Assembly: GCA_037903475.1 (NCBI GenBank)
Contig: JBAJFG010000004.1
Span: forward strand, 1,612,001-1,676,000
Origin: Ancylostoma caninum
Lineage: Eukaryota; Nematoda; Chromadorea; Rhabditida; Ancylostomatidae
Reading direction: 5' to 3'
Length of the DNA: 64,000 bases
The position numbers were made by a program, and so were the translations under genes. The notes under the pieces were generated by a model. The model did not search any database. It saw nothing but the letters and a program-made list of their open reading frames with translations, and was not told where the DNA came from. Of this stretch, positions 3,381 through 55,015 are shown in pieces. The first letter of the stretch is position 1; every line of letters starts with the position of its first letter.

Positions 3381-3383
<3 letters not shown>

Positions 3384-3433
<50 letters not shown>

Positions 3434-3694
3434 TGGCGGACGCAGGGGGGGCCCCCCCCGAGAATGGGTCGCCAAATTTTCGAAATTACTTTACAATACA
3501 AATAAAAATCTTGTGTTAGTTTATTTTTAATTGTTTATTTTTATTATTATTTTTAATATATTTTTTATTTATTGTTTATTATTATAATTAATATTATTAT
3601 TAATTTTATTTTCCGTCTGGGTCCCCAAAACGGCGGAGACCCCACTTTTCTTCCCACGCCCCCCCCTTCCGCCCACTTTCTGCGTCCGCCACTG

Positions 3695-3758
<64 letters not shown>
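3384..3758. repeat. (TA)n microsatellite interrupted by a MITE
   Basis: Pure or nearly pure TA runs at about 3384-3430 and 3695-3758 flank the element at 3431-3694. Many apparent open frames here are just (YI)n or (IY)n translations of the microsatellite and are not genes. Confidence 0.95.
3431..3694. mobile_element. Microsatellite-associated MITE, copy 1 (TIR CAGTGGCGGACGCAG)
   Basis: The element is 264 bp with perfect 15-bp terminal inverted repeats CAGTGGCGGACGCAG. It has no coding capacity. Inside the left end are a poly-G/poly-C run and GAGAATGGGTCGCCAAAT; the centre is rich in TTATTATTAAT; the right side carries CCCACTTTTCTTCCCACG. The flanking bases ATATATAT on both sides fit an 8-bp target duplication, as expected for hAT-type elements. 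Same family as 46212, 47457, 47759 and 48069. Confidence 0.9.
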
Positions 3759-23700: not shown

Positions 23701-26471
23701 GCTTTCTATACAGTGTTTTAATGGGGCGCAACGCTGGTGGTAAGTGTTCGAAAATCATCAAGGGCTCTTAGGAAGTTGTAAGGTATATGAATCGGGCAGC
23801 TTTTCTAGCACGTCTGCATCTCCCCTATAGGGACTATTTCTCTGGGTAAATTTGAAAAAAAACCTACCTTAGGAGCAAATTTGCTGTCCGAAATAACACC
23901 TACACTTACAACTCGCGAAAACAATTCAGCAGAAGGAAAGCTACATTTGCTCTACTTGATAGAACCCTTCCTTAAAATCATGTCAAATCACAATACTATA
24001 AGCTTTGCAAATTCCGCATATTCACACATTTTTAGATAGCACTACTCCAATGCACTTCTACACGCTAGTTAACGTATACATTTCTGTACCTAGAGCGAAA
24101 ATTATGGCAACAATGTCTGTGTTTCTAGTGTCTTCTCTGAAGAGATAACTGGCACAAAGCACAAAGTGAGAGTATTTCGCTTCGCCGCAGACAGCACATT
24201 ACGATCGTCTGCGAACGAAAGCTCTGGAAAATACTAGTAGGGTACACATACCTGAAATATTGTGATGCAAAGTGCACGGAAGCAATAGGACAACGCAGCG
24301 CAGAAGAAGACTCGCCGAGACACGACCCATCTGAAAACAATGCCTGGGTCTGAAGAAGCTGGACAAAACATCCCTCTAGACTAGAACTATTTTCAGATTA
24401 TAACTGAAACAAAATAAAGTATAAAATTGAACAAGCCTAGCCGATTATGCTGGAGCAAGTATTGCACAAATAATTACAAAGAAACTAATAAAATAATAAC
24501 CCTGAATTGAGAAAAAAACTTATTAACACAGGAAAATTTTTAAAAAAGTCTACGTACGTATATGTTTACCACGGCGACTGGTAGGATTCAATTTTGGTAG
24601 ATCGCAGGTAAGCCAGGTTGAGGAAGTAGAAATGGCGTTACCAGCAGAAGCAATCTATCAACAGCCTCACCCGAGATGTGCTTTTTTTCCTTATCGGTGA
24701 ACCTCAGCCTCTTTTTCCCCTCAAGGAACTAATAATGTTTTCAGAAATTTGGGTATAGTCTGCCTATCTGAATTTTGGCTTTGTGTTGGTTCCAAAACAA
24801 TTCTTCTCCCAGGAAATGTGCGACTAATGGGCGTTGTGATCGTGTGAAGCCAGGGGTATTTCCAGATTCAAATGTGAAACTGAGAACAGTGAATACGTCA
24901 GTTGGCGCTCTCGATTTTATTTCAGTTACCCATGTTTGGAGATGTATTTAGAGAGATTTTTGCACGTATATGGCATAGAGTGGCGGGCAGGTGTTCTCTA
25001 ATTGCCGTACATGACGTTTAGAGCAGTTTCACATGGAAAATCGGGGAATACTAAACAGAGAATACCAGTAGGCGCGCCATGATTCTTTCTATAAAATGAC
25101 TCTACGGACACTTGTTGAGAGAAATGAAAACGGGATACGCCCACGTTCGAATTTTTTTCAGCTAATACAGAAAATAAGTGATAAAAGCTAGAAAACAGTC
25201 TACTTGGAAGGAGAATAACGAGGAAAGTAGGTGGAGAAGCGTAAAGATGAAAAAAAGATCCAAAATAGGAAGAGCCACTTGTTTCAATAGATGATCATAG
25301 CAGAGAGAAATACTGTTGTTTTCTATGAATTTACTCTTCTTGTTGTCGAAGGAATATCAGGCAAAACGTGTGACATTAATGGCAATCCTTCCAATGGGAG
25401 CCTCTATTCTTTCAAGTTTACCTGTGTTGATGGGTAACGATGATAACCAGAGTGTTTACGACGAGAATCAGCATGATGTACTCGGTGATTCTGATAGCTC
25501 CGCGGACCTGAAAACATGGGGAATCGGTAGTGCTATGGAATTCAAACCTATCTCTTCGTACTTAATAGTTCACACCGTTCGCTAATTGCTTTCTATTCTG
25601 ACAAAAATACACACAATAGCGTCGTTAAATGGAATGTGCAGCACATGGCTCAAGGAGTAATTCGCAGGGATCTGAACGCCTTTTCAAAAAAGCGCGCTAG
25701 CGTTTTTCAAATCTCTTTATGACTGTAAGAACCTCCAGTCCTGAACCTATTGCATTATGAAGCCTGATTAGAAGCAAATGCGTTTACCGTGGACCAGTAA
25801 GTGGCAACGGTCCTTAATTACAAAAAAGTAAGTATGGGAGTGGATTGGAAGGTTTAAAAATGCAACGAGTCGGGTTCAAGGAATGAACCAATTTTCAATT
25901 TGTTCTCCCGCAAAGCTTGCAATATCAAAAAAATTTCTGCTTCCGCTACCCTCCACTGTAATTCCGGGAGACTTTTTAAGTTGGCAAATTCTCTCGGAAT
26001 TGCCACAGGAAATAAAAATCTTGCAATAGCTCGTCTGCTATTCCTAGTTTTGCTGTTATTTTTCAGTCAGTTTTCGATAATTCAATTTTAAACTTAATTT
26101 TCACCTGTATTTTGGAAATCTGGCCATCGCAGATCTCATACTTCCAAATCAATATAATTCCGTGATTACTCTATAAAAGAGGCACATGTCCTATTGACTG
26201 ACCTCTGGGAACCACGAGAACCACAAATCCGGCAATGGCGGCGTGTCCCGTGGGACCCGTTCGTGGATCCATGCCAGCGCCACCTCATTCAGCAACCAGC
26301 CGACACCCTGAAACTCTGTGTAGAATTCGGGTCAACAGTGCAAACTCCGTAGAGCGATAAGCGTCGTCCACGCACCACTAGTGCCAATGCGACCAGCGTC
26401 GGCAGCCGTCGTACCACGTAGGACTTCGTGATCGAAGTGGGCAGGATCTCCCGTTTTTCTTTGTCCAGCAT
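14780..26471 (-). CDS. Sphingomyelin synthase-family enzyme (one internal exon not located)
   Basis: Exons in coding order: 26471-26376 (ATG, MLDKEKREI...), 26307-26203, 25507-25422, 24330-24252, 21739-21635, 19732-19625, 19440-19349, and a last exon 14900-14780. All junctions have GT-AG sites and matching phases. The family transfers phosphocholine (or phosphoethanolamine) to ceramide at Golgi or plasma membrane. Seen: ALAWIHERVPRDTPPLPD, CAPKTNGSFYI, MFWSAGIE, the catalytic CGDLIVSGHT and HYTIDVV (His-His-Asp triad intact), hydrophobic helices between them, and a C-terminal SWWSWIVPYFEKDAPPPH. No N-terminal SAM domain is seen. Between HYTIDVVLG and the last exon the family normally has a further TT(R/K).F..YH segment; I did not find it in 14900-19349. 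Introns are long (up to about 4.4 kb). The AG directly before the ATG could be a trans-splice acceptor. Confidence 0.87.
15000..19300. other. Long intron of the sphingomyelin synthase gene
   Basis: This should contain the missing exon. A dispersed repeat related to 11828-11930 is at 16525-16620; a G-rich stretch is at 17310-17450. Short open frames on the + strand (18423-18967) look like chance. Nothing else is recognised. Confidence 0.45.
22910..22948. other. Near-perfect hairpin in a sphingomyelin synthase intron
   Basis: CAGGGAATGTGTGGAAT pairs with ATTCCGCACATTCCCTG across a 5-base loop, with one G-T style mismatch. It may be a structured RNA, a small foldback remnant or chance; no terminator role is expected in this genome. 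Confidence 0.6.
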
Positions 26472-28158: not shown

Positions 28159-28351
28159 AAGTGGCGGACCCAGAGGGGGGGGGGGAGGTGGAGAATGGGT
28201 CGCCGAATTTCCGAAATTCCTTTATAGAATAAACGAAAATCCAGTATAGGTTAATTTTCTTTGGACGGTCATAGACAACACTCAATTTTTTTTCACGCCA
28301 ACCCCTCCCCCCTTCCTCCCGCTTTCTAGCCCACTTCTACGTCCTCCACTG
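28159..28351. mobile_element. Diverged copy of the CAGTGGCGG MITE
   Basis: The left end AAGTGGCGGACCCAGAGGGG and GAGAATGGGTCGCCGAATTT, and the right end CTACGTCCTCCACTG, match the family with several substitutions and an internal deletion (193 bp). No microsatellite flanks it, so it is an older insertion or its array has decayed. Confidence 0.75.
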
Positions 28352-33560: not shown

Positions 33561-36500
33561 GTTCTAGGGAAGTTCCTTCTGCTTGAGCTAAGGTCAGCTG
33601 AAGCAGTGGAGATGTTTCACAAGTTAACGGAAGCTGATGATAAGCGTAGGCAAGGTAGGTCATTACTGGCCGAAAAGAAACCGCTTTCCGAAGTGGAGAC
33701 GTGGGATCGTAAGAGGAAAAACTGGAGTCATCCCTACATATTCAGATATTATCGATAGACATCGCCTACATATTCAGACCATAAACCGCAGCAACGAAAG
33801 CGAAATTGCCAAAAAAAACAATTACAGGTTTGAAACCTCGAAAAAATATGAATAGGTGATATAGCGAATATTTGAGAAAGAATATGCAAGGGATGTAAAA
33901 ATTGACACTTTCTGGAACTAAATGGGGTATAATACAACAACAGAGTATATTAATTTCAATATCACTAATTGGAGATAAATTATAAGTGTAAATAATAAAT
34001 ATCAATACTGAACACGTACGCATATTAGCAAGCATTTCTGGAAAATTCGGCAACCCGTTCTCAAGGAGAGGGGAGGGGGGGACAACATCTGTTACTGGTC
34101 AAAGCCTTCAATTTCGCAGTATTTACAACCACCTAGACGGTAACTTCCATAGTAGGAATTCCCGCCAATTCCGAATTCTATCTGTGTATAGTACTCGTTG
34201 ACAGCAGGAAACTAGCATGTATAGGATAGGCTACTGTTAGCTTCAAATAATATTGGGTTTAGCTAAACTAAAGTTGCAAAAAATTTCTAGAGGGATTTCG
34301 TTGATCCAGTGCACTATAAAACTCCTGCTTTAAGGGTTCGCTCCACACGATATTCAGCTGAACGATGCTCCACCATAAGGACGTCCGGTTGCCTTAATGA
34401 TCACTAAACATGTAGAAATCGTAGGTGAATTTGATTTGGTCAGTAGGGCACCTAATGCGAGAAAAGGTTTAAATTTCTTATTCTAGTGGAAGAAAATATC
34501 ACGAAAAAACATTGGATTGAGTAGGAAGTGATGTATAGAAACGCAAAAGGCGATCCCTTTTCTGACAGTACTGTATGCCTTCCATTGATTCAATCGGCTT
34601 TCAATCAAGTCGGGAAGGTGTTGGCTTAGGCATCATAAAGACATCCATGAGGGATCTTGTAGGAGCAATAACGTGCAGTCGTTTTATCTCATTCAAGAGC
34701 TGTTCACTGTAGGTAACAGTGAATTTTTTCAGACGTTTGCGCTTTTAAAACAATCATACTCCATGTAGTCCCCAATCGTCACTCATCCTATGGTGTGGTT
34801 TTTCTCTCAGAATTATACTCATGGACCGCTAAGTGCTTGACGTTTGCACGAAAAAACAGTCGTTACCATGAGACGTGTATGGAATGTGCATCTGCTCCAA
34901 CCATTTGCATGACTTTGCAATAGAAATCCTGTACCTGTCTCAGGAAGCCAAGACTTGCATGATGTTGAGCTTACGGATCTCCTTAGTCCAAGTCATACTC
35001 ACCATGCACATTCTATGCACTTCCCATGACAAAGGAGACCACACTTCCGGTCTAGTTCAAGCCCCGAAACCGGTATGTGAAAAATTAACCAGCATTCTAG
35101 CTTCCCAAGATCCTTCTCAGAGCTCTCATTTCTTTCAATTTGTCCTTTAGCAATAGCGTTTCGTCCCATAAAAATTCGTGTCTGCTTCAACATCGTATCA
35201 AGAGCATGAAGTTTGCGCGAGATTAGAACTGCGAATAAATGGCGGAATCTTGTAGCAAATTTCGCTCTTTTCCCCTAACTTTCCCTCTAATTTTGAATTA
35301 ATGTTTTGAAAATAAATCTATGGAACAGTAGCTTTCTCATTTTCTGCGTACGCAAGAAGTAGAACGCCAACGCAAACAACCCCTGTAGCAGGATTAGTCC
35401 CTGTGTACGTGGTTGCTACGGAAAGTGTAAGCGCATAGGGTAATACATGTACTACATATTATTAACCGAGAATGAGTTCTACCAGTCTTCTTGTTTTTGA
35501 TCCTTATTGCCTTGGCCTGTCGTTAATGTATTTCCTTGTTTAGAAAAGGTTCAGAGTGCAGACATAGCTGCAGGGGAGAGAAGAGGAGGACACTGGTGCT
35601 AGTGCCATTTTTTCTGTGGCGAAAATAGGAACAGGTTTACTCTATGGGTCATTGGTGCCACTATTTTTCGCCCGAGGGCTAATCCAGGCTCGCGTGAAAG
35701 TGTAGAGATTGGCATGGGACCAATGCTGCTTTAACTCCCTCTATATGTAGATGCGACAATCAGAAGAACTTTAACATACCTTAGCACCAAATAGGAAAAA
35801 ATACTTCTGCAAGGGCCACTGAATAGGAATAGGAGAGTAGAGCTGTACATACATCCATGTAAACTCTCTATTACAACCTCGCATACGTTGATCAGTATGT
35901 GGAGAGCTTTATGCGGGAAAGATGAGTGCGGCCAAGCTCTGCGATTGGTTGTTCCGATGAGATGGTCTAAGCTGCGGCTTCCTTTTCGGAGGCAGCTCTC
36001 CACATTGGTTGGAGAGAGTCGTGTAATAAATATTAGCATATGAACATTTGGACTAAGGACTTCTGGTCTCGTATCCACATACTTTACCCACTTGGATAAA
36101 CGCACTCCAGTGAATATGTTGGGGTAGTTGGGATTAAACAGTGGAATCATATGCGCTGATATGCTAATCCACAGGTTTTGGTACAAGTGGTCTTTTTCCA
36201 GGTGATTTCCACTTGATAACTCTCCATGGTCTGCTCCGACTTGATGCTACGACATGCTCTGACTCTGTGTTGTCCCTTGTTGCGCCAGGATGTGAACACG
36301 TGGATGGGTGGGTTATAGTGGACATCAGAGCGGATAAAAACCGGTGGGAACGGATATATACGCGCTGCGTTTTACCTCCAACTGTCAATTATATTGGATA
36401 CGGGTTCAGATACTGCTATCGATACTTTATTTATTTCTGCGATTGCGCCTGCAATATATACATATGGAGAAGATCTACTGGGTGATGCTGACAGAAGCGA

Positions 36501-39360: not shown

Positions 39361-42250
39361 TTCCATTGGTTAGCTTTCGGTACAAAAATATCTTCATCGG
39401 ACATACAACATGTCTGCTGGATTCAGTCTAGATCAATCAGCATCACCATTCGTGTAAATTATCAGACACTAATGAACTTATCGCATGTGAAAATTCAAAA
39501 CTTGACAGAGGCATCTACATTACTATTTGAGACTCCAGGATAGCTCCATAATGTCAAAGACAAAGGTGTAGAATAGGGCGAGTTCTCAGCATCAATGGCC
39601 AGTGATCAATCGAACCGTTAATCGAGGCAAAATAAAAATCGATATTGCTCTGTTACCCACTGTATGTATTCATTAATAGAGTTTCTGATGCCTAATGTGG
39701 AGGGAGGAAGGCACATAATGTTCTTCCGGTGCAACATATTTATGAACCATTCTTGATTTTTTTTTCAAAAATCCAAGTTTATTAACACATAGATTGCTGT
39801 TCTAATTAAAATCAGATTTGGCGTCTTTGACTTCTATAACTGCTCAGTACTTTTATCCTTGCAATAAGGTGAATGGGAGAACTCTAGGCTGTGAGAGAGG
39901 ACCACATCAAGGGCATTGCGCACTGCACTTGATCACCAAGTTCGATTTCTGCAGCCCCGGAGGTTACCCAACACTGTTGTGATCTATGATCCAATAGGAT
40001 GGGTGACGGAATCGAAGACGTTCATCTGTGCAGTCGCAGAAGCTGTACTACTAACGGAAAACTCTTCGCCCATTGATTACCGACAGCATAAATAACCTGG
40101 AGCCTATATTTATTGAAAAAAAATCAGCTCGAGTGTCCCTGCCGGCGCTTTCCAGCTGCTTTTCGCAAGTGCAACACAAATATCCGGGCGTCGACGGTGC
40201 TTGTTCCCGGATTCCCGCGACACACGCACGTTTCGCGCATGGCAACGGCCACCGCGAATGAGATCAGCGCATGCATCCTTCAATCAACTGAATCTACTTC
40301 TAGCATCAAATACTGTTGGCTTTGCTTGCTCAGGAGCTGTAAGGACCCAGAGAATTGGGGTCCCATGTGCCGAAATATGACAAGGAAGTAGTTATTGCAA
40401 TAAAAGCAATAACTTCCGGGGCATGCTGAGTTCTCCAGCCTGCCTCCAGTATCTTAAAATGAGTGGTGTTGGAGGCAGTCTTCCACTCAGAACAGTACTG
40501 GGATGTGAAGTAAGAATATGAACACAGGAAAGCATCACCTAATTCTAAAAGAAAAAATTTGGCAAAAAGGGTTTGTCCAGCAAAGCGTGAATCGATTCAG
40601 GATTCCTAGCGGTAGAGTAATAGATGTGGTTTTGTTTACTGATTTCGAGCTGATCAGGAACTCAGGGATGTTCAAGAGGAGTTTTTTCAGTGACCATTAT
40701 TCCAAAAATCCAAGGTATTTTGAAGATATTCAAATTTGAAGCAGGGAGAGTTATTAAAGACTTCGCTCACTTCCAGCATTACAAACACTACGACAAGTGA
40801 CGCATACCTATTGTACCAGCACCCAAAATAGTTATGATTTATTGTATCTGCTGTGGGTTATGATGGTAAAATGCATGTCAAGGTCTTCTCAGAGTGCCAA
40901 TCAAAAAATGTCCAAACACATAGGAGTTTGATGCAGAAAATGGTCATAAATTCCTGCTCTAGGAATACAGTAAGAACATCAGCATGAGGTATAGCAGTCG
41001 TAAGGAGGATAACTCATTAGTGATCGCTGTAGTGAAGCTGGTAACCGCCTGTAAATTGAAGATGGACCAGACTCGTCAGTCATGAATACGTAAATGCAAA
41101 ATAGCTAACTCATTCTAAATTAGCTACAAATTCAAGGTGAGAACTCAGTCTTTTTAGGTAAATTGGCAGAAGTACGTATGAACTTTAACGTCAGAACGAG
41201 ACGGTCTCTCTAACCACAAAAGCTGAACCGGAAGCTGAGTGTTAGTAGAATGTGGACAGCTAAAGATACACGACTTGAGGAGAAAGGCTTACTGCTCATG
41301 ACTTACAAAATGAACCCATTAGATCGTACTGGAAAATAATACCGACGGAAAACTATAGAGAATGGCAACACCGCCAAAACCCCTATGTTTCGAGCGAGAT
41401 CCCCATTGTTTAGAAGCATCTGGTGGCAAGATCACGGAGAATCAACAGAGCGAAGAGCGGAACCAGCGCGGAAAAGACGCGCCCCGGGTCTCGGCACTGC
41501 GCGCTGAAGAAATGAGCTTACCTCCGAACCGCTCAGTCGACTGTTTGATTTGTGCCAACAAACAGAGTCGAGGAGGTTCACGGTGTCACGAGGCAAATGG
41601 CATCGAGGCAAACCTAGTCGCCGCTGAGTAGAGGCTTCGCTGGCGCAAATATTTCGAGGAATTTTGTCGATGGGCAGGTCATACGGTAAACTGTCCACAA
41701 ACACAAATCTTTAGAGTTCTACAAAACCTGTGGGCTATTTTATTTTATTTTATTTGTACGTTACAAGAACGCACTGAACATCAGAGTCGACTAACATCAA
41801 ATGCGAAGAAACAAAGCAGAAAAAATGCTGATTTTAAACAATAAACACGAACACTTGCAGTAAAACTTAACGACAGATGCTTAAGATAGACAGCGAAATT
41901 TCCCAACGCTTAGTAAAAGAAGAAAATCTAAAATTTGACCAGCTGTACACCCCAATGTCCCAACTTTTATGTTGCTATATTTTTACTAGCTTAATGCTAT
42001 TATTAGTTCTACTAAATTATATTTGGTCATTCGAAAAATGATTCGTACATCCTTCGTGGTTTTAATTCTTAATCTACAATCACCTTCTTCCACAGAGCAT
42101 CAAAATGGGGTTTCTAATCTGGTCTCGTCCTGGATTTCTGAATATCAGCTCAGAAGGGGTGAAGGGAGTGGCAGGGAAGGAGGTGTTCCACCGTGAAGCG
42201 CCCATCTTGAAAGCAAGAGAATGAAGATGGTAACAACACACGAATTGGTG
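39361..42250. other. Intergenic, no gene recognised
   Basis: Short open frames at 40073-40391 and 41362-41704 are open on both strands and carry no recognisable domain. A small hairpin GTTATTGC-AATAAAA-GCAATAAC lies near 40391-40413. A TTTTA-rich run lies at 41735-41755. Confidence 0.4.
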
Positions 42251-42356
42251 GACACAGGGGGGAGGGGTCGGCGGAGGAGGGGGACCAATTTTCGAGATCA
42301 CTTTATAAAATAAATAAAATTCTTGTATGAATTTGTTTTAGTTGTTTATTTTTACA
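42251..42356. mobile_element. Half-copy of the CAGTGGCGG MITE
   Basis: GGGGGACCAATTTTCGAGAT, CTTTATAAAATAAATAAAAT and TTGTTTATTTTTA match the left half of the family (compare 3450-3545). The right half is missing or unrecognisable and there is no flanking microsatellite. Confidence 0.55.
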
Positions 42357-42559
42357 GTCAATTTCCAGGCATTCATTTCTAATTATTTCATATTTGAACT
42401 GACACGTGAAGTCATTAGGATCGGATATTCAAGACTACTAAGACGAAAATGTCCATAGAGAACTGCTAACTATGCTATGGTTATAAAAAGGACTGATTCC
42501 CAATACGCATAATATATTCCGAGAAACTCGTCTTCTATTCCAGGGGCTGCATCACTCCC

Positions 42560-45435: not shown

Positions 45436-45962
45436 CACACCCTTATCGCATCGTTGGACCCGACTCCAGGCGTTTCCCCACTTTTGGACGCCGGCGCACC
45501 CTTATCACACCGTTGGACCCGACTCCAGGCGTTTCCCCACTTCTGGACGCCAGCGCACCCTTATCACACCGTTGGACCCGACTCCAGGCGTTTCCCCACT
45601 TTTGGACGCCGGCGCACCCTTATCACACGTTGGACCCGACTCCAGGCGTTTCCCCACTTTTGGACGCCGGCGCACCCTTATCACACCGTTGGACCCGACT
45701 CCAGGCGTTTCCCCACTTTTCGACGCCGGCGCACCCTTATCACACCGTTGGACCGACTCCAGGCGTTTCCCCACTTTTGGACGCCGGCGCCGGCGCACCC
45801 TTATCACACCGTTGGACCCGACTCCAGGCGTTTCCCCACTTTTGGACGCCGGCGCACCCTTATCACACTGTTGGACCCGACTCCAGCGTTTCCCCACTTT
45901 TGGACGCCGGCGCACCCTTATCACACCGTTGGACCCGTCTCCCCCCATTGGGCGCCGGCGCA
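45436..45962. repeat. 59-bp GC-rich minisatellite, about nine copies
   Basis: ACCCTTATCACACCGTTGGA, then CCCGACTCCAGGCGTTTCCC and CACTTTTGGACGCCGGCGC repeat with a 59-bp period (one 58-bp copy, one with an extra GCCGGC). As 59 is not a multiple of three, all frames on both strands remain open, which explains the long but meaningless open frames of 163-241 codons here. Confidence 0.95.
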
Positions 45963-46155: not shown

Positions 46156-46211
<56 letters not shown>

Positions 46212-46214
<3 letters not shown>

Positions 46215-46468
46215 TGGCGGACGCAGAAAGTGGGCGGGAGGGGGGGCGTGGGAAGAAAAGTGGGGTCTCCGCCGTTTTGGGGACCCAGACGGAAAATAAA
46301 ATTAATAATAATATTAATTATAATAATAAACAATAAATAAAAAATATATTAAAAATAATAATAAAAATAAACAATTAAAAATAAACTAACACAAGATTTT
46401 TATTTGTATTGTAAAGTAATTTCGAAAATTTGGCGACCCATTCTCGGGCCCCCCCCCTGCGTCCGCCA

Positions 46469-46471
<3 letters not shown>
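46212..46471. mobile_element. Microsatellite-associated MITE, copy 2
   Basis: 260 bp, perfect 15-bp termini CAGTGGCGGACGCAG, opposite orientation to copy 1 (starts CAGAAAGTGGGCGGGAG side first). Flanks ATATATAT on both sides. Confidence 0.92.
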
Positions 46472-46504
<33 letters not shown>

Positions 46505-46507
<3 letters not shown>

Positions 46508-46699
46508 GAAGCTCCAAATGTCCGCAGTCAAGAGGGCGTGGCCACGGCGCGGCTCCTTGATCAGACACAGGCGCTCTCTATGCTGCCTCTGGCTTCTCTG
46601 ACTCTGCAGCCAACCAGTGGCAGCATGCCGAGCGCCTGTGTCTCTGTCTAAAGCCGCGTCGTGGCCACGTCCCTCTTGACTGCGGACATTTGGAGCTTC

Positions 46700-46702
<3 letters not shown>
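46505..46702. mobile_element. Second foldback/MITE family in the same TA array
   Basis: 198 bp. About 50 bp at each end are inverted repeats (CAGGAAGCTCCAAATGTCCG at the left, its complement at the right; both followed inward by the CAGTCAAGAGGG type sequence). TATATATA lies on both sides, consistent with an 8-bp duplication. It shares only the CAG...CTG ends with the other family. No coding content. Confidence 0.88.
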
Positions 46703-46753
<51 letters not shown>

Positions 46754-47456
46754 TATGATACTGTTGTGCAGATGAAATGGATTAATGATTTGTTGTATTC
46801 AGTGTGTTAGATGAAATGGATTGATGATTTTTGTATTTAGTGTGTTTGTAAAATTGCATATTTCGCCTTTAACAGTTTTCAACTTGTTAGTTACTACATA
46901 CTATTTATGGATGAAGGCAGTATGTTACTACATATGGAGGTTGCATGGCGTGACGTCATCGCCCATATGGTAGTGATTCACTGGGCGCGCGTACTGATCT
47001 CGCTCGCTGAGGCGCCCCAATCTCGCTAGTCCCAGGCTCTTACCTGCACTCGGCTGGATCCCGAGGATAACCATGGATTTCGGGCCGTTAGGCCCGGAAT
47101 CCGCGGCTGTCACTGGTTTAATTACCCAAGTTTGAGGTACCTACATACACGTATACACAGATACATACATAGATACACGCATACATTCATACATAGACAC
47201 ATACAAACATACATACAAACATACATACAGGGCGGACAACTCGTCCGCACCCATCAGACGCTCCGCCCCCTCGAGCAGACGCTCCGCCCACTCGCCGAAC
47301 AGCCCGATTTGCCGGGATTTCCACGGTTTTTTCGGTTTTGCTCGGTTCTCCTCGGATTTCTAGCATCTCCTCAGCCGCCAGCCCCCGCGAGACACCAGAC
47401 ATACATACATACATACATACATACATACATACATACATACATACATACATACATAC

Positions 47457-47726
47457 CAGTGGCGGACGCAGAAAGTGGGCGGGAGGGGGGGCGTGGGAAG
47501 AAAAGTGGGGTCTCCGCCGTTTTGGGGACCCAGACGGAAAATAAAATTAATAATAATATTAATTATAATAATAAACAATAAATAAAAAATATATTAAAAA
47601 TAATAATAAAAATAAACAATTAAAAATAAACTAACACAAGATTTTTATTTGTATTGTAAAGTAATTTCGAAAATTTGGCGACCCATTCTCGGGGGGGCGC
47701 GCCGCCCCCCCCTGCGTCCGCCACTG
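47457..47726. mobile_element. Microsatellite-associated MITE, copy 3
   Basis: 270 bp, 15-bp termini intact, orientation as copy 2. Flanks ATACATAC on both sides, consistent with an 8-bp target duplication in a CATA array. Internal sequence nearly identical to copies 2 and 5. Confidence 0.93.
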
Positions 47727-47758
47727 ATACATACATACATACATACATACATACATAC

Positions 47759-48040
47759 CAGTGGCGGACGCAAGGAGGGGGAGAGTGGGCGGGAGGAGGC
47801 GTCCCCCCGAGAATGGATCGCCAAATTTTCGAAATTACTTTACAATACAAATAAAAGCTTGTGTTAGTTTATTATTAATTGTTTATTTTTGTCATTATTT
47901 TTAATATAATTTTTGTTCATTATTTATTATTATAACTGATATTTTTATTAATTTTATTTTCCATCCGGGTCCCCAAATCGGCGGAGACCCCACTTTTTTC
48001 CCACGCCCCCCCTCCCGCCCACTTTCTGCGTCCGCCACTG
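47759..48040. mobile_element. Microsatellite-associated MITE, copy 4
   Basis: 282 bp, orientation as copy 1; left terminus CAGTGGCGGACGCAA has one mismatch, and the interior has more substitutions than the other CATA-embedded copies. Flanks ATACATAC on both sides. Confidence 0.92.
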
Positions 48041-48068
48041 ATACATACATACATACATACATACATAC

Positions 48069-48348
48069 CAGTGGCGGACGCAGAAAGTGGGCGGGAGGGG
48101 GGGCGTGGGAAGAAAAGTGGGGTCTCCGCCGTTTTGGGGACCCAGACGGAAAATAAAATTAATAATAATATTAATTATAATAATAAACAATAAATAAAAA
48201 ATATATTAAAAATAATAATAAAAATAAACAATTAAAAATAAACTAACACAAGATTTTTATTTGTATTGTAAAGTAATTTCGAAAATTTGGCGACCCATTC
48301 TCGGGGGGGGCGCGCCCCCCCCCGCCCCCCCCCCTGCGTCCGCCACTG
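48069..48348. mobile_element. Microsatellite-associated MITE, copy 5
   Basis: 280 bp, perfect termini, orientation as copies 2 and 3 and almost identical inside; differs mainly in the length of the internal poly-G/poly-C run. Flanks ATACATAC on both sides. Confidence 0.93.
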
Positions 48349-48443
48349 ATACATACATACATACATACATACATACATACATACAGACATACATACATAC
48401 ATACATACATACATACATACATACATACATACATACATACATA

Positions 48444-49260
48444 ATCGGCAGAAATCCCGAAAATCCCGAGATATCCGGGTAAATCCTCAAAATTTCCAAT
48501 TTTTTTGAAAATTCTCGCTCTTTTTCGCAATTTTAGCCAAAAATTCCACCAAATTCACATACATAGATACATACATACTCACATACATACACACATACAT
48601 CCATACATACACAGATTTTAGCCAAATATCCACAAAAATCCCCAAAAAATCCAAGATTTTTCGAATTTTTGGCAATTTTAAGCAATTTTAGCCAGAATTT
48701 CCACCAAAATCATACATACATACACACATACATACACACATGCATACATACAACACACATACACACATACATACACACATACATCCTTATACATCAGCTT
48801 GAAATCCCACAAAATCCCCAAAAATCCCAAAAATTCCGATTTTTTTCGATTTTTGTCCGATTTTTCCCCCAACTTTTCAGAAATTTCAGCCAGATTTCCC
48901 CTCAAATCCTCATACACACATACATACACCCATACATACACACATGCATTCATACAGCATACATACATACACACATTCATACATAGATACATAGATTTTA
49001 GAGAGAAATCGCTGAAAATCGCGATTTTTGAAAAGTGAGGCCTAAACCACGCCCCCTTTTGTGCCGATTTGGCCCGATTTTTGGCATTTTGAATTCTCTC
49101 ACATACATACATACATACACCCATACATACATCCGAGAGCCCGAAATTACGAATTTTCTCGAAAAAATCCGAAAATCCGAAAAATCCGATTTTCTCATTT
49201 TTGGTGGATCCCGACTGGAATTCTTTTATACATCAACACTCCCCCCAACATCCACTACAT
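48444..49260. repeat. Composite satellite: (CATA)n plus about 100-bp AT-rich spacers
   Basis: Spacers starting near 48444, 48612, 48798, 48996 and 49138 are rich in AAATCCC, AAATTTT and TTTTTCGA and end with related words just before the next CATA run (TTTTAGCCAAAAATTCCACC, TTTTAGCCAGAATTTCCACC, TTTCAGCCAGATTTCCCCTC). The repeat unit is therefore array plus spacer, about 140-200 bp, diverged. Confidence 0.7.
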
Positions 49261-49319
49261 ACATACAAACACCCATACATGCATACATTCATACAGACAT
49301 ACTACGGATTTTTCTGCAC

Positions 49320-51317: not shown

Positions 51318-54300
51318 TTCCACATCACCTTGATCACCTTGACTCCCGTTGATCTTCGGGTGTACCGAGCGGCCGCCAGCAATCCTTCCATTTGTCCCTC
51401 TCGCGAGCCAGAGTTGTCCAGTGGATTCTGTCCGTTCGAGGGACATGGAGAGCATCGTATCTATCCTTGAAGGACTTCGTGAAGAAGTCTGACCATCGGG
51501 TCGATGGTCTTCCTGTCGTGCGCTTAACGTCCCGTGGAGTCCAGTCGCTGACGGCTCTTGTCCAACGGTTGTCGTTAAAACGCATCACGTGTCCGGCCCA
51601 TCTAATCTTACTCAACTTGGCGTAAGCGGCAGCGTCCCTGATCTTCGATTGTTGACGAAGGGTGGAGCTCCGTATTCCAGCCCTCACTTGCGTGAGGCGG
51701 GTTATTCCTAGCATCACCCTCTCGATGGAGCGTTCGACGACGCTGACCGCATTCTCATCCTGCTTGCGCAACGCCCAGGTTTCTGAGGCGTAGGTCAAAG
51801 CAGGGAGAACGGTTGTGTTGAAGAGGTGGGCACGGAGCCTGGTGTTCTTCGTCTTCTTCACTACGTCCTCGATGCTCTTGTAAGCTCCCCAAGCCGCTCT
51901 TTTCCTCCTGCTCAGCTCTGGAGCGAGGTCGTTCATCATGTTGACTTCCCGACCTAGGTATACGTAGCTGGAACATTCGGATATGGTCGTTCCGTTGAGC
52001 GAGAATGGGGCATCCGGGACCCATCCGTTCTTCATGAACATCGTCTTCGTCAGATTCAGCTGGAGACCAATCTTTCCACACGCGTCCTCGAAGTCGGCCA
52101 GCATCTGTTCCGCTTCGCTGATGGTTGGTGTTATAAGAACGATGTCGTCAGCGAAGCGAAGATGACTAAGTCGCCGGCCATCAACTTGCACTCCCATGCT
52201 ATCCCATTCCAGTTTCCGCATGACGTCTTCGAGAGTGGCGCTGAATAGTTTTGGCGACACGGTATCGCCTTGCCGAACCCCTCTCTTGACGTCGATGGTG
52301 ATGTCGTCGTAGAATGGAGAAATCCTGGTCGTGAAGTTGCTGTAGACTCACGAAATACCTTGATGTATTGAGTAGGTATGCCCTGGTTGCCCAGGGCTTC
52401 CAACACCGCTTCCGTCTCAACAGAGTCGAAGGCTTTCTTCAAATCGATGAACGTGAGACAGAGGGGCATCTTATACTCTCGCGATACTTCGATGAGTCTA
52501 GTGACGGTGTGTATGTGGTCGATCGTACTGAATCCTTTTCGAAACCCTGCTTGCTCGCACGGCTGTCCCTCGTCTAGTGTCCTTTCGATCCTATTGAGGA
52601 TCACTCGCGTGAAAAGCTTGTAGACGACGGACAGTAGGCAGATGGGGCGATAATTGCCAATATCCTGCGGGTCTCCCTTCTTGTACAGCAACACAGTCCT
52701 GCTGGTCTTCCATTGGTTAGGTACCTTGCATTCCGAGAGGTACCGCGTGAAAAGCCTAGCCAAGGTGGTAATGAGAATTGGCGGTAGGTTCTTCAGATGT
52801 TCCGGTCGAATCCTGTCGGGGCCTGGTGCTGTACGGTTCTTCACCGACTTGATGGCATGTCGGATTTCGGAAGGGAGAACCGATGGGACAACATACCCGT
52901 CCTCCCTAAGATGACATTGAGGGAGGTGGACGTGGCTATCGAAGAGATCCGAGTAGAAGTCGTAGATGACCTTCTCCATTACCCGTCTTGATGAAGAAAT
53001 TGTTCCGTCTGGGCGCCGGAGGGCGGACATCTTGGTCTTGCGATTGGCGAAGTCTCGGCGGGTGCAGCGAATGCTTTTCCCTGCCTCTGCGGCTTCGGCC
53101 AACACTGCTGCTCGTCTCTCCTTTAGGTCTTCTTTTATCGCTTCTCTGCACCGTTTTGCGAGCTCGGACGTTAACTGGTAGTTGCCTGCGGCTCTCGCGG
53201 CTCCACGCTGGCGTATAAGCTCGAGGGTCTCGTAAGACAGTCGTCTCTTGGTGACTCTTAAACCCTCAGCGCTCTTTGCGCTGTCGCGGAGATGCTGTAC
53301 AAGCCGATCGTACTCTTCGTCGATGTTGTCGACAACCGCATCTTCCCAAAAGCCGGCTAGCGAAGTGAAAAGATCCCAATTGATGACGGGTTTGGGACTC
53401 CTTCTCTTAAACTTCACGGCTTTCTCTCCTTTGCGTGAGAAGAAGAATCTTGCACGAAGGAGGCGATGGTCGGATCCGGTGTAGAACTTTGGTACAACAC
53501 CGACGTCGGTCAGGCAGAACCTTCGATTGACGATGATGTGGTCAATTTCATTATGGTACTCTCCACCGGGTGACTCCCACGTCCAGCGTAGGGAGGTTGG
53601 CTTCTGAAATTGTGAGTTACCATGGATGGTCTTCGTCGTCATGATGAACTCAGACAGCCTCTCTCCCTGTTCGTTCCACTGCAGGCCGTGGGTACCGATG
53701 TGAAGTTCCTCAGGCGTTCTCCTAGGACCAATCTTGGCGTTGAAATCGCCAACGATGATCTTGTAGAATGTGTGGTCTTCCCTGTAGAACTTCTCCAAGT
53801 CCATATAGAAGGCCTCGATATCCCCTTCGTCGTAGCTGGATGTTGGAGCGTAGGCGACGAAGATTGTCAAGGCCGGTATTGATCCACATCTTCTCAACCG
53901 CAAACGTCCGATTCGGGTTGTTAGCTGTTCGAATGAGTCGATGTTCATGACCAAGTTCGTGTTGACGAGGACACCGACTCCACCAACTCCTCTACTGTCG
54001 CAGGTTCCAAGGAACAGTTCTTCTCCAGTGTCGAAGGTGGCGTTCAATGGTCGGTGTCTCCTCGTCTCGGTCAGTCCGATGACGTCGTACCTGATCTTCC
54101 TGGCCTGCATCATCAAATCCTCGATGGAAGCCTCCGATGCAAGCGTGCGTGCGTTGAAGGTACAGACCGTCATCATAGTCCTTCTGGTTTTAGGCAGCCT
54201 AGATAACCCCTCGGACCTCGTCCTCACTGGCGCTGCCGTACCAGTGACTCTTCCGAGATCAGGGGAACACTCTCTAATATTGCTGTGTCGAGCTTGAAAA

Positions 54301-54689
54301 ATTTGATTCCCACAGGAGATAGCTTGCTGGGCTCTATTCCCCCGTGGGAGGCTGGAGTGTGATTTCACCGGGAAGTTAGCCGGGCTTCCCGGGAGTGGAC
54401 GATGGAGCTTATTTGTTGGAGGCGACTCCGAACCGCCTCCCTTGTACCTCCCAGTCACTTGAATGCAGGGCTTTTGGTCGGATAGATGTGCAGGATACAA
54501 TCTGCAGACACGCAAGCACACCCATGCACGCATGCATGAACATGCCCACGCGCTGACAGAAGGTATAGATCGTTCCGACACTGCAGAGACAGGGAGTCCA
54601 TCCCCTGAATCCACCCGCGTCTCAGGGCAGGCACAAGGTCGCGTTTGGTCCGCGATTAGCCCCCTATCCGCCACCTGGGGACGCGCCAC
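51318..54689 (-). mobile_element. RTE-clade non-LTR retrotransposon, nearly intact, one frameshift
   Basis: The long minus-strand frame (54689-52131) carries an N-terminal extension and then the APE-type endonuclease: FNARTLAS (about residue 178), TETRR (207), VAYAPTSS, GDFNAKIG (315) and GSDHRLL (405). Reverse transcriptase follows: TAPGPDRIRPEHLK (about 620), NYRPICLLSVVYKLF, AGFRKGFSTIDHI and FIDLKKAFDSVE. At about 52347 a one-base frameshift moves the coding frame; the rest continues in another frame to a stop at 51334, with LRFADDIVLIT (the FADD active site) and a C-terminal region ending EDQRESR. All catalytic motifs are visible. The 3' tail holds AAGGTGATC twice, a short-repeat tail typical of RTE. 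The protein nicks target DNA and copies its RNA into it. Confidence 0.93.
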
Positions 54690-55015
54690 GTAGCCTCGCG
54701 ACTAACCGGCTGGGATCCCTCGTATGAGGGAGAGTGGCTATTCCACATAGAACCTCATATTTATGTGATGTTGGTCTCCATCAGCAGATCAGTGATCACT
54801 CTGTACCTGACGTCAGACATACCAGGAAGAAAAGATTGCTTAGGTAACCGAGTGAACGTCATCCCACGGTAGGACGACCTCGTCAGTAGAAGCAGCCCCG
54901 ACTCACCTCTCCCATTCGCCCCACTTTCTCTGACAAGCAACTTATAGGTCATGAGGTGTAACCCTAGGCCAGAAAAGGATCGCTTATGATACGTAGGGAT
55001 TCCTCCCTGCACCAA
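54690..55015 (-). other. Probable 5' region of the RTE element
   Basis: An 84-codon minus-strand frame (55015-54761) and GC composition like the element suggest that the retrotransposon's 5' untranslated region extends here. Its exact 5' end and target duplication were not determined. Confidence 0.4.

Follow-up and report, generated by a model that had tools for sequence, protein, structure and literature searches.

Among the closest described counterparts of the element family analysed here are plant MITE-like elements, namely the SaTar elements of guayule and rice, MuTAnT and the Ac-mMITEs of pineapple, which in the available text of their descriptions are over-represented in (TA)n arrays (PMC5907723, PMC4486113, PMC8449440). 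The guayule SaTar families are described there as using other microsatellites too, and recombination was considered by the authors. Micron and TAFT are drawn upon here as they are presented in those papers. As far as these accounts extend, non-nested stacks and normal duplications outside arrays are common to the plant elements and the hookworm MITE, whereas the plant elements are linked to Mutator and have 9-10 bp duplications and the hookworm MITE belongs to an animal and has an 8 bp duplication. For elements that dwell in microsatellites, the usual explanation is either a special targeting mechanism or recombination.

In its ends (CAGTGGCGGACGCAG), size (~260-290 bp in nearly all young copies) and duplication (8 bp), the hookworm MITE is alike to the Pegasus-like MITEs of silkworm, BmMITE-14 to -16, for which the available text gives the ends CAGTGGCGGATTA, CAGTGGCGTACCTA and CAGTGGCGGATTT, lengths of 265-431 bp and unspecific 8-bp duplications (PMC2997013). 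This likeness is one of those three properties, and the word 'microsatellite' is absent from the main text of PMC2997013. Target motifs have also been described for hobo, Hermes and Tol2. An 8-bp duplication is reported for hobo, and a palindromic motif that reaches beyond the duplication is given as the rule for hobo and the other families studied (PMC3276498); the targets of Hermes and Tol2 are given as nTnnnnAn (PMC10368747) and TNA(C/G)TTATAA(G/C)TNA (PMC4818426), respectively. Microsatellite accumulation is not mentioned in the available text of these three papers. Among the best-ranked matches in the open-access literature there was no animal hAT-like MITE enriched in microsatellites, although such a case may already have been published.

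Copies of the MITE in the window

The window, that is the whole 64-kb stretch of DNA analysed, contains five full-length copies of the MITE, here called c1 to c5. These copies, two older relatives and the two arrays that house four of the five are as follows.

3431..3694, minus strand: MITE copy c1, 264 bp, in (TA)n (3383-3430 and 3695-3758); 0.4% from the family majority
46212..46471, plus strand: MITE copy c2, 260 bp, in (TA)n (46158-46211 and 46472-46504); 0.0% from the family majority
47457..47726, plus strand: MITE copy c3, 270 bp, in (CATA)n (47399-47456 and 47727-47758); 1.1% from the family majority
47759..48040, minus strand: MITE copy c4, 282 bp, older, 9.5% from the family majority; in the (CATA)n array of c3 and c5
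48069..48348, plus strand: MITE copy c5, 280 bp, in (CATA)n (48041-48068 and 48349-48443); 0.7% from the family majority
28159..28351, minus strand: old degenerate relative outside arrays, sharing 65-68% identity with c1 to c5 across the aligned bases; nhmmer match partial (E 1e-13)
42246..42404, minus strand: old relative, truncated and not in an array; nhmmer match to model 101-268 (E 2.3e-16)
46158..46750, no strand: single interrupted (TA)n array, containing c2 and an unrelated palindromic MITE (46505-46702)
47399..48443, no strand: single (CATA)n array, containing c3, c4 and c5 end to end

Nine of the ten ends of the five copies are exactly CAGTGGCGGACGCAG and the tenth (47759-47773) carries one mismatch. 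The window termini exceed chance: when up to 3 mismatches are allowed, CAGTGGCGGACGCAG has 12 matches, compared with 0.81 on average in 100 shuffles. An initial annotation had described five young copies with shared 15-bp termini, each within a pure TA or CATA array. The coordinates and termini of all five stand, as do the occurrence of both orientations and the presence of the same 8 bases on both sides of every copy, ATATATAT in (TA)n and ATACATAC in (CATA)n. Only four of the copies are young, however, since c1, c2, c3 and c5 share 98.5-100% identity over aligned bases and c4 shares 91-93% with the other four. Two copies do lie in (TA)n and three in (CATA)n, although the array of c1 is interrupted once, at 3695-3758.

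Every full-length copy of the window therefore sits in an array. The two copies placed outside arrays by the same annotation, as the most diverged, are indeed old relatives, but the one delimited as 42251-42356 is part of the truncated match listed above. The 8-bp flanks of 28159-28351 do not match each other. Fainter profile matches are present at 33946-34075 (E 3e-4) and 25981-26096 (E 4e-3).

A right subterminal G/C tract (~46443-46459, 47689-47713 and 48300-48336) differs in length and sequence among near-identical copies of the window, unlike the left 210 bp of the same copies, in which no differences are found. The (CATA)n array belongs to a cluster of CATA arrays at 47138-49302, mostly degenerate, in which the occupied array alone combines length with purity.

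Abundance, surroundings and classification of the family

The window (C140:1612001-1676000) belongs to a 348-Mb, 638-contig genome, judged from the protein relatives of its LINE (below) to be probably that of a hookworm-like strongylid nematode. Within this genome the exact 15-bp terminus occurs 5427 times (2707 + 2720), compared with 0 + 1 occurrences of the reversed control. The surroundings of 99 of 100 terminus places listed, on contigs C1, C2 and C4, were taken as a sample, which is biased toward copies with one or both termini still perfect. Searched with a profile of the five window copies, it gave 79 matched rows, among them fragments and copies entered once for each strand, and 52 near-full copies (model 1-5 to 260-271) were kept. 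Eight of these lie in (TA)n arrays and 44 in ordinary DNA. The proposal that the family is found only inside microsatellites thus describes the full-length copies of the window and fails for the genome, where most sampled copies lie in ordinary DNA, the youngest included (24 of 32).

Enrichment at TA arrays is nevertheless strong, as had been suspected: 936 of the 5427 termini (478 + 458; 17%) adjoin ATATATAT, against 0 for the reversed control and ~0.2 expected from base composition. The window, with all its full-length copies in arrays, is an extreme local sample of this 17% tendency. In the available text on the plant elements, copies are mostly microsatellite-flanked, at 62-95% in the 13 guayule families covered (of 15) and ~74% in pineapple, compared with the ~17% of termini at ATATATAT here. 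For worm genomics, the result suggests that a young and possibly polymorphic MITE is present in many (TA)n arrays.

None of the 52 sampled near-full copies adjoins ATACATAC or GTATGTAT, and within the sample CATA use outside the window is rare. In the sample, a CATA-type flank beyond the window is hinted at only by a truncated copy (L034:412-527, model 166-271) that ends at an 11-bp GTAT repeat. At a further sampled locus (L028:4566-5454) a copy with the duplication CTAAATTG has another palindromic element inserted in its middle, and, judged by its two ends, this longer copy is a normal copy plus an insertion. No match to a 26-letter terminus pattern was obtained in viral and prokaryotic contigs, where little was to be expected.

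Divergence from the family majority is bimodal in the sample, with 32 copies below 4% and 20 above 8%. Arrays hold 8 of the 32 young copies and 0 of the 20 old ones (Fisher p 0.017 when young and old are divided at 5 or 8%, and 0.12 when they are divided at 3%), and divergence differs between array and non-array copies (Mann-Whitney p 0.010), with the proviso that the 8 sampled array copies occupy only 5 places and their independence is limited. Contrary to this trend, copy c4 of the window lies in an array and yet, at 9.5%, belongs with the older copies.

The family has the properties of a MITE, being 260-290 bp long in nearly all young copies, with 15-bp inverted termini in high copy number. 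Its length allows at most ~95 codons and leaves no room for a transposase. The inverted ends are CAGTGGCGGACGCAG...CTGCGTCCGCCACTG. Termini of hAT elements begin, as a rule, CAG or TAG, and the ends of the hookworm MITE have a start of this type. Inside arrays the duplication length is unreadable: identical 8-mers on either side are inevitable because the array period divides 8. Taken alone, the array copies of the window require a multiple of 4, since the TA flanks allow any even number and the CATA flanks only multiples of 4. The 8-bp length was accordingly taken from the non-array near-full copies, in 36 of 44 of which at least 7 of 8 flank bases are alike. In the other 8 no duplication is present at the model ends, and by eye some flanks look shifted by one base.

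The earlier suggestion that CAG...CTG ends and 8-bp duplications fit the hAT superfamily is borne out by these copies. Duplication length alone does not separate hAT from KDZ/Zisupton, P and Merlin, which are other groups with ~8-bp duplications. From its ends and duplication together, the family is probably a non-autonomous hAT-like MITE family that would depend on a hAT transposase. Pegasus of Anopheles, which we take to be a member of the Pegasus-like MITE group, would be among its counterparts. Two other assignments were rejected. A Mutator-like element (as SaTar, MuTAnT and Ac-mMITE) would have a duplication of 9-10 bp, which is at variance with the 8 bp seen here and, as neither 9 nor 10 is a multiple of 4, also with the CATA flanks. 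A Tc1/mariner or Stowaway-like element would duplicate TA, whereas the CATA copies are flanked as ...ATAC|element|ATAC... and the duplication elsewhere is 8 bp.

Target-site motif and register of array insertions

Empty target sites, 36 in all, were rebuilt by joining the two flanks of each of the 36 non-array copies, and array copies made no contribution. Among these, TA steps at positions -5, -3, 2, 6, 10 and 12 are present in 12, 21, 16, 8, 8 and 10 of the 36 sites, respectively, against a background of 0.058 (uncorrected p 5e-7, 3e-17, 4e-11, 9e-4, 9e-4 and 3e-5, with 51 positions tested; those at 6 and 10 are borderline after correction), and G or C occupies positions 1 and 8 in 75%. Together these form a weak palindrome, approximately TATAn|STAnnTAS|nTATA, in which the bars mark the 8-bp duplication and TA steps are spaced 4 bp apart across it; a clear signal is absent beyond ~8 bp from the duplication. 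The palindrome is stronger to the left of the element (TA at -3 in 21 of 36 sites vs at 10 in 8 of 36, p 0.004). The leave-one-out median score of the sites is 3.6 vs a background median of -4.6. The motif, which rests on 36 sites, is weak: at most one of the four core steps is matched in 23 of 36 and TA at -3 is absent in 15 of 36.

The Hermes-type pattern nTnnnnAn is present as a bias and not as a rule: of the 36 sites, 20 have T at 2, 18 have A at 7 and 9 have both. When the middle eight letters of the Tol2 target, as given in the available text, are taken as the duplication, the hookworm motif shares with it the S at 1 and 8, the T at -3 and 2 and the A at 7. What distinguishes the hookworm MITE from hobo, Hermes and Tol2 is the 4-bp spacing of its TA steps, which fits TA and CATA arrays.

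A weight matrix built from the 36 non-array sites was then scored on repeats, with 264 kb of local DNA as the background; this background consists mostly of regions chosen for holding copies, arrays included. Within (TA)n, the register ATATATAT scores 8.8 (99.99 percentile) and the register TATATATA scores -11.3 (4.4 percentile). Within (CATA)n, the register ATACATAC scores 6.5 (99.82 percentile), with a predicted rate 73 times the mean, and of the remaining registers one scores 1.8, which is the 95.8 percentile and a rate 3 times the mean, and the other two score -9.1 and -11.9, with no higher predicted rates. All five window copies sit in the registers predicted by the motif. Among the 52 sampled copies ATATATAT is found on the left in 8 and also on the right in 7. 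Seven sampled array copies scored by the matrix had been picked by their ATATATAT flank, and the register is there given by construction; the fair and independent register count is that TATATATA adjoins 0 of the 52 sampled near-full copies on either side. All four core TA steps occur together at 251 positions in the 264 kb, 229 of them within TA or CATA arrays.

A single TA-step preference of a hAT-like transposase would explain both repeat motifs and the register. The use of two repeat motifs by one family, which had been singled out as unusual, is real within the window and poses no special puzzle, given that one degenerate TA-step motif fits both. The MITE would move by cut-and-paste, duplicating 8 bp of its target, and the transposase would prefer the weak palindrome, with TA steps at 4-bp spacing and one more on each side. 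Ordinary DNA would seldom offer all of these TA steps together, whereas (TA)n would offer them at every second position and (CATA)n at every fourth, and arrays would thereby become hot spots with one fixed register. Each insertion would leave array on both sides, so that later copies could land alongside it and build non-nested stacks.

That an ordinary target preference of this kind, the best targets of which are microsatellites, explains the array copies is the reading we favour, with a probability of roughly 0.7. The family itself is real, young and abundant, and its target preference is of the ordinary kind. Integration would be direct and performed by a hAT transposase, and preference alone, without later array growth or survival, may account for the size of the ATATATAT excess. 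It is only tentatively proposed, at slightly worse than even odds, that (TA)n and (CATA)n are the best targets of an animal hAT-type transposase whose MITE stacks as plant SaTars do, with no dedicated array-reading step. A further difference from the plant elements is that the target motif of non-array copies accounts for the array register of the hookworm MITE.

By the matrix, (ATAG)n is further predicted to be a strong target, whereas for (CA)n and (GA)n the prediction is no better than average. If the preference for this motif is the true cause, flanks of ATAGATAG/CTATCTAT should, like those of ATATATAT and ATACATAC/GTATGTAT, be found far above TATATATA. A motif learned only from copies in ordinary DNA that predicts both the repeats used and the register amounts to a quantitative test for any genome with such an element, and, if the reading is true, this register test would help to tell, for microsatellite-targeting elements generally, whether direct integration or recombination is the better model.

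The register also bears on the possibility that insertion is random and that copies then survive in harmless repeats. Arrays are plausibly neutral landing places, and the sampled array copies are all young. Survival, however, gives no reason for one TA register to be found over the other (8 vs 0 of 52), and the same motif is present around copies in ordinary DNA, so that this explanation is considered very improbable.

Array growth, array seeking and local copying as possible alternatives

The difference in array occupancy between young and old copies is not predicted by a constant preference alone. It would fit dedicated array seeking, whether by an array or chromatin reader or by circle recombination as suggested for the guayule SaTars, or a recently sharpened preference, either of them acting atop a weak preference. 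Besides the age difference, for which the cut-off and independence caveats given above hold, the motif is clearer in younger sites, with TA at -3, 2, 6 and 10 in 16, 9, 7 and 7 of 22 younger sites vs 5, 7, 1 and 1 of 14 older ones. This may reflect either decay of the flanks or a sharpened preference. Array copies are also more alike within a locus than between loci (below), which fits local exchange or bursts. Seeking of arrays is opposed by the finding that the array register is that predicted by the non-array motif, on both sides of the element, for which recombination gives no reason, and by the large share of young copies outside arrays. Overall, array seeking or sharpening is judged unlikely.

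It is also conceivable that the arrays grew after insertion, from a short TA-like or CATA-like target that was duplicated and then expanded by slippage, as proposed for TAFT of maize. In the available text, empty sites of TAFT are 6-8 bp long and have grown to up to (TA)50 (PMC5907723). In the 264 kb only one long TA array is present without a copy or a second MITE beside it (L015:6986-7039, 54 bp), a count in which empty arrays are underestimated since most of these regions were selected for the copies they contain. Close to the occupied CATA array, the unoccupied ones (48557-49302) are degenerate, with 73-85% matches, and the occupied array is the only long and pure CATA array of the window. 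Against later growth, no expansion is seen in the duplications that flank the 36 non-array copies. Furthermore, in two array copies (L025 and L061:1608) the TA on the shorter side spans only 8 and 10 bp, compared with 20 and 36 bp on the longer side, lopsided flanks that are as expected if each landed near the edge of an existing array. Array growth after insertion remains a real rival to the target preference, albeit one we think rather unlikely.

The arrangement of copies within arrays was compared at 20 further loci, chosen from termini adjoining ATATATAT and thus selected for it. Two or three intact, non-nested copies were present in the stretch read at 8 of these 20 array loci; in 6 of the 8 the copies are 10-34 bp of pure TA apart, and in 4 of the 8 the neighbours are oppositely oriented. 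At one of the loci (L079:219-754) two copies are fused head to head with their inner ends lost (7 + 12 model bases outside the match) and TA arrays flanking, another (L088) holds part of a copy only, and at L081 there was no profile match of score at least 100. Two loci on different contigs, L076 (contig C4) and L084 (contig C28), have a common right flank, ATATATATACAGGGGGGGCCATAAG..., which is itself a repeat beginning with a TA stretch.

Across the left 210 bp, copies differ by a mean of 0.42 within one array locus (19 pairs) vs 1.44 between loci (684 pairs), and this greater likeness within array loci makes it likely that some local duplication or exchange has taken place too. In a stronger form, a single array insertion would have been multiplied by unequal exchange or replication slippage. 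The within-locus likeness, together with the 0 differences in the left 210 bp between c3 and c5 and among several stacked copies, could be read in this way, but c2, which lies in (TA)n, also shows 0 differences from c3 and c5. Moreover, opposite neighbours are frequent (c4; L073, L074, L075 and L077; and L078, where the stretch read cuts one copy), and at L009 three copies lie within 2.7 kb in arrays whose outer flanks have no common 9-mer. Local copying is on these grounds quite improbable as the main source of array copies, and in its pure form, local duplication alone, it is rejected on orientation and unlike flanks.

Several other features lie near the copies of the window. The unrelated palindromic MITE at 46505-46702, in the (TA)n array of c2, is 198 bp long with the ends CAGGAAGCTCCAAATGTCCGCAGTC and occupies the opposite TA register (TATATA on both sides), as expected of a TA-duplicating element; no further copy of it was present in the window or in sampled loci L009-L068. 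A 59-bp minisatellite at 45438-45942 (8.5 copies, 93% matches) has long open frames on both strands. At 51334-54701 there is an endonuclease/reverse-transcriptase LINE with two overlapping frames, and residues 300-820 of its reverse-transcriptase frame (52131-54701) have their best relatives in Ancylostoma ceylanicum proteins (93% identity), followed by those of Necator and Haemonchus.
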